From positions 11,204 through 75,203 of the forward strand of contig JAJVHV010000003.1 of the NCBI GenBank assembly GCA_022072445.1: 64,000 nucleotides of DNA, given 5' to 3'. Shown in pieces: positions 41,201-52,012 of this stretch. This stretch comes from Phycisphaerae bacterium. Its GTDB lineage: Bacteria > Planctomycetota > Phycisphaerae > UBA1845 > Fen-1342. A program made the translations under genes and the position numbers. Position 1 is the stretch's first letter; the number at the start of each line of letters is the position of its first letter. The notes under the pieces were generated by a model. That model searched no databases and was not told the DNA's origin. It saw only the letters and a list, made by a program, of their open reading frames with translations.

Positions 41201-41398
41201 GATAGCGGCGCGACGCGCAGCTCTGCGCTACTTCCCGCACGGGGATTCACGTCAATCCTGCGGGACACACGTCTGTCGCCCGTTCCCACGTGGCACACGA
41301 ATTGCTGCGCATGATATTGACGAAGTTCGCGGGGACAAGTGGCGCGGCGGTCGTGTCCAATTGGGGCCGAGCGAGCTCGCGTACTTTCGGAGGTGAAC

Positions 41399-42766
41399 AT
41401 GCCCTCGAATCGCGCCTTTTGGTTCAACTGCTGCGTGCTCCTTGCTTTGGCGTTCTGCAATCAGGCGTCGGGGATGCAGGACTGTAGCTGCTCCATTGAC
41501 CGGGTGTGCTCCCCCGAAAGCCAGTGCTGTGTTGCTGGCCAGTCGGTGTCGTGCCTGTATATCTATTACGACTCTGATTTGTTCGAGTTTGTTCCCATCC
41601 TTCACTGCGCACAGGCAGCCGCGTACACCTACTACGGTGGAATCTGCGATTGCGACGCGGACGGCACGTTCGACTTTGAGGGCGAGTGCCGCGTTGGCAA
41701 CGAGAATGTGATGGCCGGTGCCGGTACCTCTGTTTGGGGCTGCCAGGGGGACGGTGGAGGTTTCTCGCACGGGGCGTCCGCCATCTCGCACACTCCGTCC
41801 GATGACTGCTGGGCTGCCACGTCGCGGACCATGAGCAGGCACTTCGCAGCGCAATGCGCCGGAATGGGATGCAATTTCCCGCCGGGATTGGGCTACTGCT
41901 TCGCATTCGTGGATTACAACTTCGAATTGCGTGCATGGGCACCATTGCCCGTGGAGTGGACGGCGCAGGTTCGGTCGACCTTCGAATGGAACTCAGACGA
42001 GGCCGCCCCCGCGACGCTCAATCGACACGTGTCAGTCACTCAGATCGATGAATCTCTGTTCGCGGATTTTCTGATCACCGCCCGAAGCGCCAGTTTGCCG
42101 AGCCCCGGAGTCGAATTCGATTCGCAAAGCGGTACCTGGGGGGCGACCACGACCGTGCCGTGCACGAGCAGCGGGGCTGAAATCACGCTCCGCTCCGGAG
42201 AGTTCACGGACGGATCCTACGACGTGAACGCGGACGGGAGGTTCAACGCCCTCGATGTCGGTGTGTTGGCGTCGGTCGTACCGACACATGAATCCGAGTA
42301 TCAGCAGTGGGATCTGGACGGTGATGGGACCACCGACTCCGACGACCTGGCACACATCGACGTGTTGGTCGACCTGGGCCTTGACTCCGGCGTCTTCGCC
42401 GACTGGGACGCGGATGGTTCGGTCGACTGTGATCAACTGAGTACGATGAACAGCGCCATCGGCTATGAGTTGGGCGATGCAGGCTATTCAGTGCTGCTCG
42501 ACTACAACCTCGACGGTGTGACGGACGGGGTTGACCGGGCAGCACTGCTGAACGTCGCGTGTCTGATCCGCGGCGACATGAACTGCGATGGGGCTGTCGA
42601 CGGCTTTGACGTCGATCCGTTTCTGCTGGCGCTCTCCGATCCGCAAGGCTACGCCAGTTCGTATCCGACGTGCGACTGGCTGCGAGCGGACATGAACCTC
42701 GACGGGAGCGTCAACGGATTCGACGTCGATCCGTTTCTGGAGTGCCTTACTCAGGGTTGCCCGTAG
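41399..42766 (+). CDS. Secreted protein with C-terminal dockerin-like motif
   Basis: Protein of 455 aa. The ATG follows a strong GGAGGTGAAC site; a longer frame starts at 41339. A signal peptide (MPSNRAFWFNCCVLLALAFC) is followed by a Cys-rich stretch (CSCSIDRVC, CCVAGQSVSC) and a region with no family I know. EF-hand-like segments (DVNADGRFNALDVG, DLDGDGTTDSDDLA, DWDADGSVDCDQL) lead to the terminal pair NCDGAVDGFDVDPFLLAL and NLDGSVNGFDVDPFLECL. It follows the prepilin-like gene on the same strand. Confidence 0.82.
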   Translation: MPSNRAFWFNCCVLLALAFCNQASGMQDCSCSIDRVCSPESQCCVAGQSVSCLYIYYDSDLFEFVPILHCAQAAAYTYYGGICDCDADGTFDFEGECRVGNENVMAGAGTSVWGCQGDGGGFSHGASAISHTPSDDCWAATSRTMSRHFAAQCAGMGCNFPPGLGYCFAFVDYNFELRAWAPLPVEWTAQVRSTFEWNSDEAAPATLNRHVSVTQIDESLFADFLITARSASLPSPGVEFDSQSGTWGATTTVPCTSSGAEITLRSGEFTDGSYDVNADGRFNALDVGVLASVVPTHESEYQQWDLDGDGTTDSDDLAHIDVLVDLGLDSGVFADWDADGSVDCDQLSTMNSAIGYELGDAGYSVLLDYNLDGVTDGVDRAALLNVACLIRGDMNCDGAVDGFDVDPFLLALSDPQGYASSYPTCDWLRADMNLDGSVNGFDVDPFLECLTQGCP

Positions 42767-43772: not shown

Positions 43773-44342
43773 GTGAGGCGGGCCGAAACACGAAACGACC
43801 GGAAATTGCGTCGCAACGACCAGGAACTGATCCGAGCCTGTCTCGACAATGACGCCGGCGCTTGGGACGAGCTGATCGAGCGCTACGGGCGGCTGGTCTA
43901 CTCCATCGCCCTGAAGGTGGGTCTCAGCGGCTCCGACGCCGACGATGTCTTTCAGGTGGTGTTCGGCATCGTCCTGCGGCGGCTGTCGACGCTGCGCGAG
44001 CATGATCGCTTTGCGGCCTGGCTGATTCGCCTGACGTACCGCGAGTCGTTCGGCTTTCGTCGCCGGAACCGGGCGATGTCGGAGCTGTCGGTCGAGCCGG
44101 CGGCGGGGGACATGACGGATGAGGAAGTCGCGGGCTGGGAACAGCGGGCGATTGTGCGACAGGCATTGGCTGAAATCGATGAGCGCTGCCGAAAACTGCT
44201 CGAAGCGCTCTTCTATTGCGCGCAAGAGCCTGCGTATGAAGAGATTGCGCAGCAGTTGTCCATGCCGGTCGGCAGCATTGGTCCGACGCGGGCGCGCTGT
44301 TTCAAAAAGCTCGAGTCAGTCCTGAAGCGGCTGGGTATCTGA
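43773..44342 (+). CDS. ECF-type sigma factor (CHAT-cluster)
   Basis: Protein of 189 aa from a GTG start. Region 2 spans about 18-90 (LIRACLDNDAGAWDELIERY, DADDVFQVVFGIVL, RFAAWLIRLTYRESF) and region 4 about 135-188 (AYEEIAQQLSMPVGSI). It would direct RNA polymerase to promoters controlled by the protein encoded next. Three genes follow in the same direction: a putative anti-sigma at 44460, TPR-CHAT at 45128 and a subtilase at 48022. The 117-base gap to the next gene may hold a separate promoter. No zinc-type anti-sigma is adjacent. Confidence 0.87.
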   Translation: MRRAETRNDRKLRRNDQELIRACLDNDAGAWDELIERYGRLVYSIALKVGLSGSDADDVFQVVFGIVLRRLSTLREHDRFAAWLIRLTYRESFGFRRRNRAMSELSVEPAAGDMTDEEVAGWEQRAIVRQALAEIDERCRKLLEALFYCAQEPAYEEIAQQLSMPVGSIGPTRARCFKKLESVLKRLGI

Positions 44343-44459
44343 TTATGAGACCTGACGACGCTTCGGACGAGTCAGCCGCTGCAAAAACCGCCGTGCTGAC
44401 CCGCCAGGCGGTATTTTCGCCCGCGGTGCCCGCTCATCTGTAGCGAAGGAGTGACCCGC

Positions 44460-45086
44460 ATGTTTGCTCGACCGACATTCGAAGAACTCGTCGCGTACGC
44501 CGCCGGTAAGACCACACCGCAGGACGCCGCGCGGATTGAGCAGCAGTTCGCGAAGCACGCCGCCGATGCGCAGACGGTGAAGTGTCTGCGTGCGGTGCTG
44601 GCCGCGGGTCGTGCCGGTGCGTTGGCCGATCCGCCCGAGGCGACGCTCGCGGCCGCCCGGGCTCTGTATGCGGAGCGGCGCGTGGCAAAGGCGAGTCCGT
44701 CGGTGTGGGCCGAGTTGCTCGAGACGGCTCGGCGGATGATTGCCGAGCTGGTGTTCGACAGCCGGCCGCAGGCGGCGCTGGCGGGGATACGCGGCGCGGG
44801 CGGGGCCTACCAGTTGGCGTACCGCTGCGAGCTGGCGGAGATCGACGTCGAAATCGAGAAGGCCGCGGCGGGCGCGAGCTGGCGTCTGATGGGGCAAATC
44901 AGCCCGACGGGCAGCGCCCAGCCGCGCTGCGTCATGCTTGTGGAGCGCGGCGGCAGCATTCCGCTGACGAGCGTCGATCCGGACGAGCACGGCGTGTTCA
45001 GCCTGGAGGCGGCGCAGGGCGCGTTCGACCTGCTGGTGATTCTGGACAATTCGGTGCTCGTGGTTCCCGGCATCGACATGCAGTGA
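44460..45086 (+). CDS. Putative zinc-less anti-sigma / substrate protein beside CHAT protease
   Basis: Protein of 208 aa. The ATG sits 10 bases after GAAGGA; a GTG nine bases earlier has poor spacing. The N-terminus (FEELVAYAAGKTTPQDAARI...KHAADAQTVKCL) resembles an anti-sigma helical start, but the HxxxCxxC zinc ligands are missing. No membrane segment is visible. The C-terminal half (WRLMGQISPTG, VMLVERGG, DEHGVFSLEAAQGAFDLLV) reads as a small beta-sandwich of the carboxypeptidase-regulatory type. Position between an ECF sigma factor and a CHAT protease suggests it is a regulator or cleavage target; this is inference. Confidence 0.6.
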   Translation: MFARPTFEELVAYAAGKTTPQDAARIEQQFAKHAADAQTVKCLRAVLAAGRAGALADPPEATLAAARALYAERRVAKASPSVWAELLETARRMIAELVFDSRPQAALAGIRGAGGAYQLAYRCELAEIDVEIEKAAAGASWRLMGQISPTGSAQPRCVMLVERGGSIPLTSVDPDEHGVFSLEAAQGAFDLLVILDNSVLVVPGIDMQ

Positions 45087-45127
45087 GGTTGCGGCGGCGC
45101 GACGCCGAGCGCCGCGAGAAACGATCC

Positions 45128-48025
45128 ATGGGCGCTGCCGCGGGCCGGCCGCCACGAAGCGCGGCACGCGCGCCCTACAACGCCATGACGGATGCGCAGC
45201 GCCAACCGGAAACGATGATGGCGGCGCTGCTCGATCTGCCGATCGAGCAGTGCGCGGGGTATGTGCGCGCCCAGGGCGATTGCGACGCGTTTCTTATCTC
45301 ATTGGCTGAGGAATCGGAGAGGCTGGCGGTGGCGGAAGTGTCACGGGGACTGGAGGCCAGCGCGCGGGTGCTGGCGCTGGCCGACGCGCTGGGCGGGCAG
45401 CGCTGCCAGGCTCGGGCGCATCGCGCCCGCGCCCAGACCCTCGCGTACGCCGGCCGATTCGACGATGCGCTGCCGATCTACCGCCGCGCGGATGAGTTGG
45501 CCCGTCGCGCCGGCGATGAAGTTGAGTCGGCGTATGCGAAGATGTCGTCGCTGCACGCGTTGGCCAGCCTGGGCAACTATGACGAGGCGATCGCGGCGGG
45601 CGAGGAGGCGCGGCGCGCGTTTAATCAGGCCGGCGAGAGCCTTGCCGCGGCCCGCGCCGACGTGAATCTCGGCGCGACGCATCAGATGCGCGGCGATCCG
45701 GCCGCGGCGCTGGTTCACCTTGACCGCGCTCGACCGCACTTTTCCGCGGACCCCGTCACGCTCGCCAAGCTCGACAGCAATCGCGGCCACGCCTTGGTGA
45801 ATCTGGACGACTTTCCGGCGGCGGAAGCGGCGTTCGAGTCGGCCTTGCGGACGTTCGTCGAGGCCGGTCTGACGTGGGCCGCGGCGATTGTCGAGGGGAA
45901 TCTTGGCGAGCTGGCGGCGCGGCAGAGCCGGCTGCAGCGCGCCTTCACCCATTACGAAAGCGCCCGCCGGCTGATCGGCGGCGACTCGGCTCCGCTGGAT
46001 TTGGCGCGGATGCGCGCCGAGCAGGCTGACGCATTCGCCACGCTGGGGCTGCTTTCCGACGCGCTGGCCGACTATCAGCGGGCGATACCGACGCTGGACG
46101 AGCATGGGTTGGCGTTTGAGAGCACACGTGCCAGCGCGGGTCTCGGGCGCGTGCTGTTGCGGCTCGGCCGACTGGCCGAGGCGGCGGCCCCGCTTCAGGC
46201 CGCGGCTGACGGTTTTGAGCGTCTGGGGCACGCCGTGCAGCGCGCCCGATTGAACCTTGACCGTGCCGAGCTGCTTGCCGCGGGCGGCCAGCGCGCCGCC
46301 GCCGAGACGCTGGTGCACGAGGCACTTCCCTTGTTGGCGGAGCGGCCGTCGGAACTGGCGGTCGCGCATCAGCGGTTGGCGCGGTATGCGCTGGCCGACG
46401 AGCGGCTTTCGGAGGCTGACGAGCACGCGTCGCGGGCGGTGGGCGACGCGCTGACGCTGGGTCTGGCGCCGCTGCTGGCCGACGCGCTGCACACACGTGG
46501 CGTTGTGCGGCGGGGGCAGCGGCGTGCGGCGGAAGCGCTGGGAGATCTGCGCGCGGCGGTCGAGCAGGTCGAGCGAATTCGCGGCACGCTTCACGCGGAC
46601 CACTTTCGCGCCGCGTTTCAGGCCAATCGTCTGGGCATGTACGAAGACCTGGTGGCCGCCGCCCTGGAGCGCGCCGACGCCGACGGCGTGGCCGAGGCGT
46701 TCCGCACGGTTGAGCGCGCCAAGTCACGCTCGCTGCTGGACCTGGTGGCGCGCGACGTGGACGACACCGCCGGCGTCGAGCCCGGCAGCCCCGATTCGGA
46801 GCTGGCCGCCGAGCTCGCCCGGCTGCGCGCCCGCGTCAACCAGCTCTACAGCCGGCTGGCCGACGATACGCACGAGCGGCGCGACGGCGAGCGGCTCCGC
46901 GCATGGCGCGCGGAGATCGAGCACGCCGAGCGGGCGGCGCGCGAACTCGAAGGGCGGCTCGCCAGCGGGCGTGGCATCATGGAACTGTTCGCCTCGCCGG
47001 CCGAGCTCGACAGCGTGCGTGCCGCCGTCCCGCCGCACGCCGCCCTGGTCGAGTATTACGTCGCGGGTGACGAACTGCTGGCATTCGTGCTTCGGCGCGG
47101 CGGCGTGACGGTCCGGCGGAAGCTCGCGGCGGCGAACGAACTGGCGGACGCCTGCGCCCGCGTGCAGTTTCAGGTCCGCCGGGCGCTGCGGCCCGGAGCG
47201 TTCGACGGCGGGCGCGGCGCGCGGCTCGAAGCGGACGCCCGCCGCGAGTGCGCCGCGCTGCACATGCGTTTGCTTGAGCCGCTGCTGTCGGAGCTGCGGG
47301 GCATCGACGAGCTGATCGTCGTTCCGCACGGCCCGTTGCACGCGCTGCCTTTCGCGGCGCTGAGCGACGAGCGCGGCTACGTTGTTCAACGCTGGCAGGT
47401 GCGCAGTAGCCCCAGCGCCAGCGTGCTGACGAGCCAGCGGGAGCGCGCGGCGCGGCCGACGGGTGGTTCGCTGGTGGTTGGTATTCCTGACGCGCACGCC
47501 CCCCTGATCGAGCACGAAGCCCGGCGTGTAAGGGAAATTCTTAGTGCCGATTTGCTGATCGGCTCCGAGGCGACGGCGGCCGCCGTCCGAGCGCGGGCGG
47601 TGGCTGCGGAAATGGTCCATTTTGCCTGCCACGGCCACTTTTCCGCGGACCAGCCGCTGGCCAGCGGGCTGCGGCTGGCCGACCGCTGGCTGACGGTCGG
47701 CGAGACCTTCGGCCTGCGTCTGGCGGCTCGATTGGTCACGCTGAGCGGTTGCGAGACCGGGCGGGGTATAATCAACACCGGTGATGAGTTCGTGGGCCTG
47801 GCGCGCGGCTTTCTCGCCGCCGGCGCCGCTTCGCTGGTCGTCAGCCTTTGGTCGGTGAATGACGCCAGCACCACCGAGTTCATGGGCTATTTTTATCAGG
47901 CGCTGTGTTCCGCGGGCGCGAGCGAGTCCGTTGCGACCGCGTTGCGCGGCGCACAATTGGCGTTGATGTCGGAGCGGGCGCACCCTGCGTTCTGGGCGCC
48001 CTTTGTGCTGATAGGTGAGGCATGA
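45128..48025 (+). CDS. TPR-CHAT protein (caspase-like peptidase)
   Basis: Protein of 965 aa (start at the ATG with GAGAAACG upstream; an ATG at 45185 is an alternative). Residues of about 60-560 are TPR-like repeats with Ala/Leu periodicity. The C-terminal CHAT domain (about 610-965) contains VHFACHGHFS with His835 before Gly and TLSGCETGRG with Cys875, the two catalytic residues expected in CHAT proteases. GDEFVGLARGFLAAGA and SLVVSLWSVND are typical flanking motifs. CHAT proteins are clan CD peptidases and include the Craspase partner. The stop overlaps the subtilase start (ATGA). A repeat-gated protease acting on a partner is inferred. Confidence 0.9.
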   Translation: MGAAAGRPPRSAARAPYNAMTDAQRQPETMMAALLDLPIEQCAGYVRAQGDCDAFLISLAEESERLAVAEVSRGLEASARVLALADALGGQRCQARAHRARAQTLAYAGRFDDALPIYRRADELARRAGDEVESAYAKMSSLHALASLGNYDEAIAAGEEARRAFNQAGESLAAARADVNLGATHQMRGDPAAALVHLDRARPHFSADPVTLAKLDSNRGHALVNLDDFPAAEAAFESALRTFVEAGLTWAAAIVEGNLGELAARQSRLQRAFTHYESARRLIGGDSAPLDLARMRAEQADAFATLGLLSDALADYQRAIPTLDEHGLAFESTRASAGLGRVLLRLGRLAEAAAPLQAAADGFERLGHAVQRARLNLDRAELLAAGGQRAAAETLVHEALPLLAERPSELAVAHQRLARYALADERLSEADEHASRAVGDALTLGLAPLLADALHTRGVVRRGQRRAAEALGDLRAAVEQVERIRGTLHADHFRAAFQANRLGMYEDLVAAALERADADGVAEAFRTVERAKSRSLLDLVARDVDDTAGVEPGSPDSELAAELARLRARVNQLYSRLADDTHERRDGERLRAWRAEIEHAERAARELEGRLASGRGIMELFASPAELDSVRAAVPPHAALVEYYVAGDELLAFVLRRGGVTVRRKLAAANELADACARVQFQVRRALRPGAFDGGRGARLEADARRECAALHMRLLEPLLSELRGIDELIVVPHGPLHALPFAALSDERGYVVQRWQVRSSPSASVLTSQRERAARPTGGSLVVGIPDAHAPLIEHEARRVREILSADLLIGSEATAAAVRARAVAAEMVHFACHGHFSADQPLASGLRLADRWLTVGETFGLRLAARLVTLSGCETGRGIINTGDEFVGLARGFLAAGAASLVVSLWSVNDASTTEFMGYFYQALCSAGASESVATALRGAQLALMSERAHPAFWAPFVLIGEA

Positions 48026-49452
48026 ATACACAAGTGGTGCGGTGCGGGCTTGGAATGGTGCTGGCCGGGCTGGTGTTGCTGCCGACGGCGCTGGCGGACA
48101 GCAACCCGGTCGATGATCAGGTGGTCGTTCGGCTCGTACCTGGCGCGGACTTGGGGGCGTTTCTGGCGCGCTATCCGCAGGTCGTCGAGGTTCGGGCCGC
48201 CATCGCCTCGCGCGATACGTACCTGCTGATTCTCCAGCATGATGCCGGCGAACTCGAATTCGTCGACATGCTCAACGCGGGCGGCGATCCCGACGCGCTC
48301 TGGGCCGAGGAGAACTACGACACCGAAACACCCGAAGGCACCGGCCGCAACTTCTTTCTGAACACCACGCCCAATCCAACCGTCTATCAGAATCAGTCGG
48401 CCTGGGGTCAGATCAACATGGGAGGCGCGCACACCCGAACCACCGGCGCCGGCATCATCGTCGCGGTGCTCGACACGGGCGTCGACGCCACGCACGTCGC
48501 GCTGAGCGGGCGCGTGTTGGCATACGGCTGGAACTTCATCGATGACAACGCGGACACGGACGACGCGGCGGACTTCATCGACAGCGACGCGGACGGCACC
48601 GTCGATGAGATGTACGGGCACGGCACGCACGTGGCGGGGATCGTCGCCGCCGTGGCCCCGATGTCGCAGATTCTGCCGGTCAAAGTGCTGGACTCGGACG
48701 GCCGCAGCGACAACTTCCGCATCGCGCTGGCGATGGAGTACGCGCTGGACGCAGGCGCGACAGTGATCAACATGAGCCTGGGCTCGACGTACAAGTCCAG
48801 CGCGATCGAAGACGCCGCCGATCGTGCCTACTACCTGGGGGTGCCGGTCGTGGGCGCCGCGGGGAATCTGAACCGCGAGCGGCCCGAGGAATACCCCGCA
48901 TTCTTGTCACACGCGCTGAGCGTGGCGGCGGTCGACGCCAACGACGTGAAGTCCGACTTCAGCAACTACAACAAGGACATGGTGCTGTCGGCGCCGGGCG
49001 AGGGCATCTACAGCACCATTCCGGGTGACCTCTACGCGCAGTGGGACGGCACGAGCATGTCGGCTCCGATGGCAGCCGGCGCCGCCGCCCTGCTCATCGC
49101 CCAACATCCCGAGTGGCCGCCGACCGAGGAGCGGGACGACTTCGTGGCCATTGCCCTCTACAACGCGGGCGTGGACATCAACGCCACGAACCCTGGATAT
49201 CAGGACATGCTGGGACATCGCCTGGACATCGCGGCGGCCGTGGGCGGGCCGTGCACGGTGGGCTGCAAGGGCGACCTGAACTGCGACGGGTTCGTCGACG
49301 GCTTCGACATCGTGCCGTTCGTGGTGGCGCTCTCGAATCCGGCTGACTACGCCGACAAGTACCCGGGCTGCGACATCACCTCGGCCGACTGCAACATCGA
49401 CGGTTCGGTGAACGGTTACGACATCGACTGGTTCATCGAGACGTTGCAGTAA
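48022..49452 (+). CDS. Secreted subtilisin-like (S8) protease with dockerin-like motif
   Basis: Protein of 476 aa. A signal peptide (to about Ala25) and a propeptide-like region (about 26-110) precede the S8 catalytic domain: Asp151 in VLDTGVDATH, His200 in YGHGTHVAG, Asn282 in GAAGN and Ser345 in GTSMSAPMAAG. All catalytic residues are present. The C-terminus has the dockerin-like pair NCDGFVDGFDIVPFVVAL and NIDGSVNGYDIDWFIETL. The gene overlaps TPR-CHAT by four bases, so an intracellular CHAT protein and an exported protease are probably made together. The subtilase may be an effector whose expression the sigma factor controls. Confidence 0.92.
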   Translation: MNTQVVRCGLGMVLAGLVLLPTALADSNPVDDQVVVRLVPGADLGAFLARYPQVVEVRAAIASRDTYLLILQHDAGELEFVDMLNAGGDPDALWAEENYDTETPEGTGRNFFLNTTPNPTVYQNQSAWGQINMGGAHTRTTGAGIIVAVLDTGVDATHVALSGRVLAYGWNFIDDNADTDDAADFIDSDADGTVDEMYGHGTHVAGIVAAVAPMSQILPVKVLDSDGRSDNFRIALAMEYALDAGATVINMSLGSTYKSSAIEDAADRAYYLGVPVVGAAGNLNRERPEEYPAFLSHALSVAAVDANDVKSDFSNYNKDMVLSAPGEGIYSTIPGDLYAQWDGTSMSAPMAAGAAALLIAQHPEWPPTEERDDFVAIALYNAGVDINATNPGYQDMLGHRLDIAAAVGGPCTVGCKGDLNCDGFVDGFDIVPFVVALSNPADYADKYPGCDITSADCNIDGSVNGYDIDWFIETLQ

Positions 49453-50518: not shown

Positions 50519-51385
50519 TCAACTGTCTGCGAAGATGATATACGTGACCGCGTAGTAAGGGTGCACGTTGTTGAACGGCACGCCGCCGCCGGTGTTACCG
50601 GTGAACTGCGTGCTGGGCCCGGTCGTGGTCACACCCATCGGCGCGGTGACATCGGCCGTCTGCACGTGTTGCAGCCCGGTGACGCCCGAGCCACCCGGAA
50701 CGTCGTGCGTGTGGGTCATGTCGTGCGCGTGCGCCGGCATTTCGGGCACCGTGAGTGCGTGCTTGGATTCGCCGCCGGCGCGTCTGGGCGTTCCTTCCAC
50801 GTCCGTGACGGGCGCGCCATTCACCTCCGCGTTCGAGCCGATGGGTGAACGATTCCGAAAGTCGGGAATGTTGAAGGTCGTGGTGCCGTCGCCGGCGCCG
50901 TAGTTTGTTCCAATAACCGCGAAGAGCTTGGAATGCACAGCCCGGGACACAGCTTGGCCTTCGCACAGGTGCCATCCGGGCGGCACGGCGCCGCGCGGCC
51001 CGGCCCACATCCTGACTTCGCCTACCAGCGCACCCGGCGGTCCCGGCGGGCCCACAGGCCCCGCCGGCCCTTGCGGACCGGGCAGGCCCGCGGCGCCGGG
51101 CGTACCCGGCTCGCCCGTTGGCCCCGGTGTCGTGCCCAGGAAAACCACCAGGTAACGCCCGTCGCTGGCGTTCTGCTGGAGCAGGCCGATTTCCTCGTTC
51201 GTCAGCACGCGCCCCGCCTCGGGCAGCGCGTCGCGGGCGGTGTCGGAGGCGTTGCTTTCGCCGGTCAGCGCGTCGAGCGCCGGCGTGCAGGAGTTGAGTG
51301 ATTGGCCGAGGACGAGGACGGAGCAGGTCGCCAGCAGCGCGGGAGCCACGTAACCCATTCTCTTGAAATACTTTAGATCGGTCAT
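50519..51385 (-). CDS. Collagen-like protein with phage tail-collar domain
   Basis: Protein of 288 aa from the ATG preceded by GGAG; the frame extends upstream over the divergent gene. A hydrophobic N-terminus (about 11-30) may be a signal. About ten Gly-X-Y triplets (88-118) form a collagen-like stretch, and a tail-collar domain follows (GEVRMWAG, PPGWHLCEGQ, GTTTFNIPDFRNRSPIG). The C-terminal beta-rich region ends in VHPYYAVTYII. Such proteins form surface or fibre trimers. No phage genes are nearby, so a cellular surface role is likelier. Confidence 0.82.
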   Translation of the reverse strand: MTDLKYFKRMGYVAPALLATCSVLVLGQSLNSCTPALDALTGESNASDTARDALPEAGRVLTNEEIGLLQQNASDGRYLVVFLGTTPGPTGEPGTPGAAGLPGPQGPAGPVGPPGPPGALVGEVRMWAGPRGAVPPGWHLCEGQAVSRAVHSKLFAVIGTNYGAGDGTTTFNIPDFRNRSPIGSNAEVNGAPVTDVEGTPRRAGGESKHALTVPEMPAHAHDMTHTHDVPGGSGVTGLQHVQTADVTAPMGVTTTGPSTQFTGNTGGGVPFNNVHPYYAVTYIIFADS

Positions 51386-51559
51386 AGTTCGTATCTCCGC
51401 CAGGCGCAGCGGCGGAGTAACCGCGCTGCGCGCAACCGAACTGTTATCGGCCGAACAGCGCGTCCGAGTTGCGATGCGGTGGGGTGACGTGCAGAATGGC
51501 GCCGCCGTGCCCGTCGCGTCGCGGGCGACTCCGGCAATGACCGACCGTGCGAGAGACCG

Positions 51560-52012
51560 TTGATATTCGACCTGCTCGACAGAGCTGACCGCTACACGGC
51601 GCTCGATCCGCGCGTCGCCGCCGGTCTTCGGTTTCTGAGGCAGGCCGATCTTGGGCGATTGGAGTGCGGGCGTTTCGAGATCGAGGGGGAGCACGTTTTC
51701 GCGCTGGTGCAGGAATATGAGACGCGGCCGACGCAGGTCTGCCTGTGGGAAGCTCATCGCCGCTATGCGGACATCCAGTGTGTTGCGAGCGGCAGCGAGC
51801 GGATGGGTTTCGGGCTGCCTGGCAACTTCGTTTCACGCGGCGACTATGACGCGGACCGTGACGTCGAGTTCTTCGACGGTCGCGGCGACGAGTTGCTGCT
51901 GCTGCCCGGCTGCTTCTGCCTGCTGCCGCCGGGGGACGTGCATCGTCCGTGCATGGCGGTTGAGGTGCCCGTTCGCGTGCGAAAGATCGTCGTCAAGGTG
52001 GAGTGGCGGTGA
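51560..52012 (+). CDS. YhcH/YjgK/YiaL family protein (DUF386)
   Basis: Protein of 150 aa from a TTG start with GAGAG upstream. Family motifs include EAHRRYADIQCV, ERMGFG and LLPPGDVHRPCMA with likely metal-binding His/Glu. The family includes E. coli proteins linked to sialic-acid or sugar catabolism (YhcH) and EbgC. No sugar pathway gene is adjacent. It is divergent from the collagen-like gene. Confidence 0.85.
   Translation: MIFDLLDRADRYTALDPRVAAGLRFLRQADLGRLECGRFEIEGEHVFALVQEYETRPTQVCLWEAHRRYADIQCVASGSERMGFGLPGNFVSRGDYDADRDVEFFDGRGDELLLLPGCFCLLPPGDVHRPCMAVEVPVRVRKIVVKVEWR

Follow-up and report, generated by a model that had tools for sequence, protein, structure and literature searches.

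A conserved four-gene set of an ECF sigma factor, an anti-sigma-type protein, a TPR-CHAT protease and a subtilase as a candidate protease-gated sigma-factor switch

A set of four genes, encoding an ECF sigma factor (SIG), a soluble anti-sigma-type protein (ANT), a TPR-CHAT protease (CHAT) and a subtilase (SUB), was analysed in a 64,000-nucleotide stretch of DNA from a Phycisphaerae bacterium (hereafter the window, to which all coordinates refer unless a locus is named). By computation, the four genes are found to occur together, ANT belongs to the anti-sigma type, the catalytic residues are intact in both proteases, and many loci have a promoter-like motif in front of ANT. On this basis, we regard a protease-gated sigma-factor switch as the best explanation of the four-gene set, a reading to which we give about even chances.

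The four-gene set in its own genome

The four open reading frames were confirmed on the forward strand, and matches to curated models bear out the preliminary description of a same-strand set that includes an ECF sigma factor, a TPR-CHAT protein and a subtilase. SIG (43773..44342, + strand, 189 aa) matches sigma-70 region 2 (E 1.4e-11) and TIGR02937 (E 4.3e-20), and carries the family signature GS[IV]GPTRxRC in region 4. It is followed by ANT (44460..45086, +, 208 aa), CHAT (45185..48025, +, 946 aa) and SUB (48022..49452, +, 476 aa), the last two overlapping, as described earlier, by an ATGA of four shared bases (48022-48025).

The genome holds a total of 66 ECF-type sigma, 3 CHAT and 14 S8 matches and, as read from the match lists, only the CHAT gene of the set has an ECF sigma factor within 24 kb. 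Furthermore, in this genome and in three relatives, the SIG protein of the set outscores the next ECF factor by at least about 150 bits. Beyond the set, a frame at 50519-51757 on the minus strand combines a phage tail collar domain with a collagen-like stretch.

Conservation of the set across genomes and phyla

The gene order is not unique to this genome; it is conserved in other planctomycete genomes, and the four-gene unit recurs across phyla. The first contig scan with CHAT as the query returned no relative. A CHAT search of the genomes of the same family matched 20 of 101 at E <=1e-10, the own genome included; the loci of 13 long matches (L031-L043) were retrieved along with L044-L050, which comprise five weaker matches and the remaining two CHAT genes of this genome, and seven weak rows were left out. 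ANT, CHAT and SUB are adjacent in all 13 loci with long matches, and SIG lies upstream in 12 of them. The remaining locus, L034, lacks SIG; a SIG of the same type is located on another contig of that genome, which shares sequence with L101. In L037 an additional long frame separates SIG from ANT, and the L041 locus is broken, its stretch containing 46 N. No full set was found in L044-L050. A possible variant is seen in L048 (5852-15303), where CHAT is followed by a sigma factor and by an anti-sigma-like frame of 83 aa, with an S8 protease at a distance.

Across Planctomycetota, the ANT profile matched 229 of 392 genomes, most of the matches listed spanning only about the first 90 positions, often within longer proteins. 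We retrieved 20 of these places, namely 18 of the 19 listed matches in other genomes that extend over the C-terminal half of ANT, and two that do not. Of the 18 loci selected on C-terminal coverage, 16 hold the complete set; SUB is absent from L086 and from L097, a short contig. The two places without that coverage contain a sigma factor and lack CHAT and SUB. In five of the 18 loci (L083, L085, L088, L092, L093) SUB lies 5' of SIG, so that the genes stay together despite rearrangement. The position of SUB upstream or on the opposite strand in some loci also counts against a protease-gated switch.

A scan of the genome collection seeded with the sigma signature GS[IV]GPTRxRC, which does not select for CHAT, returned at least 597 stretches, at least 587 of them confirmed, and the best 80 were analysed. 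These come from Planctomycetota, Chloroflexota, Rubrobacter and Acidimicrobiales, Acidobacteriota, Chthonomonas-type bacteria, Krumholzibacteriota, Eisenbacteria and Burkholderiales, many as metagenome bins in which single taxon labels may be wrong; named carriers are Rubrobacter taiwanensis (L129) and Sulfidibacter corallicola (L165, with a weak ANT match). Six of the 80 loci, not counting L101, are contigs of loci retrieved earlier. Of these best 80, 59 have 5.5 kb or more of downstream sequence; 51 of the 59 contain ANT, 54 CHAT, 51 SUB (at any position) and 47 all four genes. The five loci without CHAT (L101, L108, L144, L147, L148) count against the protease-gated switch; L101 has sequence in common with a contig of a genome whose ANT-CHAT-SUB genes sit elsewhere. 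In L140 and L177, one CHAT and one SUB occur with two SIG-ANT pairs, partly on opposite strands, as if the pairs shared one protease.

The 20 Actinomycetota loci, drawn from at least 46 places in 37 of 296 genomes, contain ANT in 18 cases, CHAT in 17, SUB in 18 (weak in L235) and all four in 16. When the first candidates per genome were scored at the thresholds given, prevalence was 25 of 392 Planctomycetota (E 1e-40), 37 of 296 Actinomycetota (E 1e-30) and 10 of 301 Chloroflexota genomes (E 1e-40). ANT and CHAT overlap by four bases in 18 of 63 pairs, with starts chosen by script. Moreover, the pairwise distances of the four proteins correlate over 45 loci (r 0.66-0.81, permuted maximum 0.27), a result that common genome descent alone could yield. 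A search for a fifth conserved gene gave a largest neighbour cluster of 13 of the 80 loci.

ANT is an anti-sigma-type protein

The product of the second gene had been described as a likely zinc-less anti-sigma or substrate protein, of which the anti-sigma type and the lack of zinc ligands are upheld. The family profile of ANT, compared with solved chains, matches in its N-terminal half ChrR (2e-6), RsiW (5.6e-5), DdvA (2e-4) and 3hug_B (0.002), which we take to be RslA, and in its C-terminal half NOMO2 (E 1.2e-17). Among 64 aligned ANT proteins (63 of the 70 sigma-seeded frames, picked by length, plus the window ANT), models matched at E <=0.05 are an anti-sigma equivalog in 37, PRK13920 in 16, zf-HC2 in 15, RsrA in 9 and ChrR in 6; CarboxypepD_reg is matched by 22 of the 64 at the same threshold. 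The window ANT gives no Pfam match at E <=1 and a weak match to the anti-sigma model NF052375 (E 0.016).

The zinc motif HxxxCxxC is absent from the window ANT, which thus falls outside the zinc-binding anti-sigma subgroup defined by H-x3-C-x2-C. In its relatives, H-x3-C-x2-C occurs near the N-terminus in 14 of the 70 sigma-seeded ANT frames and H-x4-C-x2-C in 8 more, against 0 or 1 of 70 in shuffled proteins; these counts include one longer protein of another kind in each group (L127 in one, L112 in the other). Five of 27 Planctomycetota relatives carry H-x4-C-x2-C, and the window ANT carries neither form.

The predicted structure of ANT (mean pLDDT 90.1) shows helices up to residue 77, corresponding to the N-terminal anti-sigma domain (about residues 1-77), a loose segment at about 70-80 (block mean 61) and then a beta-sandwich (about 91-207), whose segment at about 91-116 is conserved; hydropathy revealed no membrane span. 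ChrR heads the VIA rows for this model (Z 8.9, 72 residues, rmsd 10.9) in a tie with Ig-like rows that concern the C-terminal half, and a Z score of this size is not decisive; Foldseek gave no row at E 0.001. The fold match to ChrR is weak alone, and it is the family profile against solved chains, together with the models matched by family members, that places a class I anti-sigma domain in ANT. We conclude that ANT is of the anti-sigma type, joining a ChrR/RsiW-type domain to a carboxypeptidase-regulatory-like beta-sandwich. Its N-terminal part alone, in the 229 Planctomycetota genomes mentioned above, matches anti-sigma-like domains, many of them in long frames, which hints at a large stock of fused anti-sigma sensors.

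The plan of ANT, an N-terminal anti-sigma domain followed by a C-terminal beta domain, is that of ChrR, the soluble anti-sigma factor of SigE in Rhodobacter sphaeroides. The C-terminal domain of ChrR is a cupin. ANT differs from ChrR in that its C-terminal domain is carboxypeptidase-regulatory/Ig-like, the window protein lacks zinc ligands, and its gene is tied to a protease gene. This shared plan favours the main rival to the protease-gated switch, in which ANT itself would be the sensor, its beta-sandwich perceiving a ligand or stress and releasing SIG, and CHAT and SUB would be outputs (e.g., in the proteolysis of damaged or foreign proteins, or in cell death) rather than the trigger. SIG-ANT pairs with no CHAT or SUB nearby (L144, L225, L226) are also consistent with it. 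However, the C-terminal domain of ANT matches CarboxypepD_reg and Ig-like sandwiches, and a sensing ANT would leave unexplained the large TPR protease present in 54 of the 59 loci (of the best 80), often directly coupled to ANT. We consider the sensor reading unlikely.

Two features of ANT count against the protease-gated switch. The set is retained in several relatives, chiefly from Actinomycetota, in which little of the anti-sigma domain is left, and the loose linker (residues 70-80) displays no conserved cleavage site.

A promoter-like motif upstream of ANT

For the region 5' of SIG, promoter searches by de novo pairs and words yielded nothing beyond the level of shuffled sequences. In Actinomycetota loci, GTATCA-N16-CTC was found at 17 sites, against 0-1 in shuffles, with a spacing peak at 16. 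Counted over the whole of the 80 sigma-seeded loci, the exact form gave 9 sites against 2-7 in shuffles, an enrichment that is not clear. A looser form, GTATnn-N15-17-CTC, set after the result for the exact form and the window gap had been viewed, occurs strand-specifically 5' of ANT in 50 of 108 loci (15/32, 31/58 and 4/18 in the three locus sets), against a shuffled mean of 4.2 and maximum of 7. Its absence from the other 58 loci counts against the protease-gated switch.

With the Actinomycetota set left out, a strict form of the motif gave 35 sites and no antisense site in 89 ANT-upstream regions, compared with an all-loci rate of 0.043 per kb, no site in 104 SIG-upstream regions, and a mild enrichment upstream (4 in 79) and downstream (8 in 78) of SUB. 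In fresh loci, from which the duplicates L270, L240, L191, L192 and L193 had been dropped, it was present in 4 of 12 from Planctomycetota and 3 of 11 from Chloroflexota, and in none of 14 from Actinomycetota (0 of 17 in an earlier run), the last result being a further point against the switch. The motif is thus supported in Planctomycetota and Chloroflexota, and is far from universal. In eight loci (L036, L038, L039, L099, L105, L116, L154, L171) a motif lies within 100 nt after SUB and faces downstream, where SIG may drive a variable next gene.

The window carries the site GTATTT-N16-CTC at 44411..44435 (+), 49 nt 5' of the ANT start, with A after CTC where most sites have T; judging from shuffles, a chance match of this kind is expected in about 2% of gaps of that length. 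The form of the motif and its strand bias fit an ECF promoter, and the site is a predicted target of SIG. Such a SIG-type promoter would place CHAT, and often SUB, behind it, an arrangement that also suits the reading in which ANT is the sensor. A search for a regulon elsewhere in the own genome gave 9 motif matches against 5 for the reversed control, with no clear excess.

CHAT resembles Csx29

CHAT contains tetratricopeptide repeats, forming a superhelix at about residues 33-466, and a domain that matches PF12770 at E 1.8e-62. The catalytic pair had been numbered His835/Cys875, which holds if translation starts at ATG 45128; from ATG 45185, the start adopted here, the residues are His816 and Cys856. 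This pair is invariant in all 55 aligned proteins (the window CHAT and 54 of 67 CHAT loci selected by length) and is kept in 30 of 32 Planctomycetota rows; the two exceptions are truncated. CHAT thus has both the domain and the catalytic residues of a CHAT protease.

The predicted structure (pLDDT 92.5) consists of a long TPR superhelix and the CHAT domain. Its best VIA row is Csx29 (8eey_B, from a complex with target RNA and Csx30; Z 34.6, 517 residues, rmsd 4.6), followed by other Csx29 chains, a TPR adaptor and separases. In Foldseek, human separase ranked first and Csx29 third, and the sequence profile of CHAT reaches Csx29-type chains at E 7.4e-14. Against the Csx29 family model NF041237, CHAT scores 40.4 bits over its CHAT part only, below the curated cut-off of 300 bits. 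These comparisons support a resemblance of CHAT to Csx29, which is the closest structural match of the predicted model. The TPR part also matches the peptide sensors Rap and NprR, which is a lead only, since TPR superhelices match one another widely.

Csx29 cuts Csx30, the inhibitor of the ECF sigma factor CASP-sigma, as described in the source consulted in part (PMC10028731). Like this type III-E system (Craspase: Csx29, Csx30, CASP-sigma), the present set places an ECF sigma factor and a likely soluble inhibitor next to a TPR-CHAT protease whose predicted structure has Csx29 as its nearest match. In contrast to Craspase, the set has no CRISPR array nearby, the TPR part is longer, the inhibitor is not detectably related to Csx30, and a subtilase belongs to the set. 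The earlier statement that no CRISPR genes are present agrees with the absence of any CRISPR-like array in positions 30000-60000, where five direct-repeat families of two copies each were found, and of any Cas match in Pfam for the four genes and seven flanking frames; over the same ranges, the CRISPR array and Cas7-11 gene beside the protease that characterise type III-E loci are missing. Homology of ANT to Csx30 found no support, as profile searches of PDB chains disclosed no sequence similarity, which counts against the switch. That Csx30 and other folds are missing from the VIA lists proves nothing and was given no weight.

The subtilase and its export

SUB matches PF00082 (E 7.1e-46). Its description as a subtilase with a dockerin-like tail holds for the catalytic part, with intact Asp/His/Ser residues, while the tail match is weak, at E 0.0011 and 19.6 bits where the cut-off is 22.9. 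The triad is kept in 30 of 31 rows, the exception (L086) not being a subtilase. An upstream protein (41339-42766, +) carries a dockerin-like tail of the same kind (Dockerin_1, E 7.3e-5).

A simple hydropathy test detected a signal-peptide-like start in 39 of 53 sigma-seeded SUB proteins, against 0 of 54 CHAT segments; in Actinomycetota the counts were 4 of 15 and 1 of 12. Export of SUB, as judged by this test, looks usual across lineages and not universal. The earlier term "secreted" suits the window SUB, which has a signal-peptide-like N-terminus, but export is not apparent in every lineage. Among Actinomycetota proteins without such a start (L220-L224, L228, L229), those of L224 and L228 carry runs of a short NPAYQ-type repeat before the catalytic domain.

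Relation to ECF54 and to conflict neighbourhoods

In the portion consulted of a 2022 review (PMC8999054, citing Huang 2015 and Casas-Pastor 2021), members of group ECF54, from Actinobacteria, adjoin carboxypeptidase, subtilase and CHAT proteins, and the sigma factor is proposed to be under the control of proteases, with no anti-sigma factor involved. The set matches this reported neighbourhood, with CHAT, a subtilase and a carboxypeptidase-type protein (CarboxypepD_reg being found in 22 of 64 ANT proteins and the window ANT having no Pfam match); the likeness drawn here is one of gene neighbourhood. The neighbourhood is therefore not new, at least for ECF54 as that text presents it. The set differs from the reported reading, which has no anti-sigma factor, in having an anti-sigma-type third protein, whose anti-sigma domain is more complete outside Actinomycetota, as well as a promoter-like motif and a distribution over more phyla. 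We infer that the "carboxypeptidase" as it appears in that text is the CarboxypepD_reg domain of ANT. With regard to the lack of an anti-sigma factor reported there, an anti-sigma-type ANT is found in 51 of the 59 sigma-seeded loci (of the best 80) and in 18 of 20 Actinomycetota loci, where its N-terminus is mostly reduced. If the set belongs to ECF54, the "carboxypeptidase" protein of that account would be the missing anti-sigma factor.

According to the same portion of the review, the alternative to be weighed is that SIG itself is degraded by CHAT, or by a cytoplasmic SUB, which would keep the system off. Besides having been proposed in print (PMC8999054), this reading would fit Actinomycetota, where most SUB proteins lack a signal-peptide-like start (4 of 15 above the threshold) and ANT is reduced. 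Nevertheless, most loci (51 of 59 of the best 80) retain an anti-sigma-type protein, and SUB would be kept away from SIG in the 39 of 53 sigma-seeded loci where its start resembles a signal peptide. We judge degradation of SIG improbable.

Caspase neighbourhoods with ECF sigma factor and TPR genes have also been reported (EACC2-caspase, DUF1822 TPR; eLife 2021 e70394, as far as consulted). They share with our set the trio of a caspase-like protease, a TPR protein and an ECF sigma factor, and differ in protease class and partners; the term CHAT has no occurrence in the main text of that article, nor in the consulted text of a 2020 eLife paper on conflict systems. Such neighbourhoods lend some weight to a conserved conflict or cell-death cassette, in which CHAT would cleave many cell proteins and SIG-ANT would merely hold expression low until infection or stress. 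The PADLOC model "subtilase" matches SUB (E 4e-27) and a PADLOC TPR model matches CHAT (E 1.8e-7), and occurrence is patchy in Planctomycetota (25/392), Chloroflexota (10/301) and Actinomycetota (37/296). On the other hand, SIG and ANT have no PADLOC match at E 0.1, CHAT matches the caspase-type model BovA only at E 0.022, and no family beyond the four occurs in more than 13 of the 80 loci. We judge the cassette quite improbable.

Proposed mechanism and significance

In the protease-gated switch that we favour, SIG would be held by ANT at rest. A signal met by the TPR part of CHAT would switch on the protease, and active CHAT would cut ANT and free SIG, which may then transcribe the ANT-CHAT-SUB operon from the site at 44411. 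The output of the operon would provide positive feedback through more protease, a reset through more inhibitor, and an effector in the subtilase. Cleavage of ANT by CHAT would be the most likely mechanism; that CHAT could have substrates other than ANT counts against it.

The sigma-TPR-CHAT-subtilase switch of the preliminary description thus finds partial support, in a four-gene unit conserved across phyla, an ANT protein of the anti-sigma type, a Csx29-like CHAT and a promoter-like site before ANT-CHAT-SUB. Its further claim of an independent use of the Craspase logic is not established, because the gene neighbourhood has already been noted for group ECF54 in the portion consulted of PMC8999054. 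No description of the set as an anti-sigma-CHAT switch was recognised in the open-access literature searched, of incomplete coverage; nor did that literature present the identity of ANT, the breadth of the set, the Csx29-like model or the motif.

More broadly, and with somewhat less than even confidence, we propose a CRISPR-independent system of several phyla in which an ECF sigma factor fires once its soluble anti-sigma factor has been cut by a TPR-CHAT protease. Craspase might then be a CRISPR-wired offshoot or parallel of an older switch, and ECF54-type anti-sigma factors might have been overlooked through the "carboxypeptidase" label of their C-terminal domain. In the literature examined, the known setting for a Csx29-type protease that releases a sigma factor is the CRISPR type III-E locus. 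If the proposal is true, it would supply an inhibitor for ECF54-type sigma factors, said in the consulted portion of the review to have none, and the same logic, operating without CRISPR in several phyla, would represent a general type of bacterial signalling.
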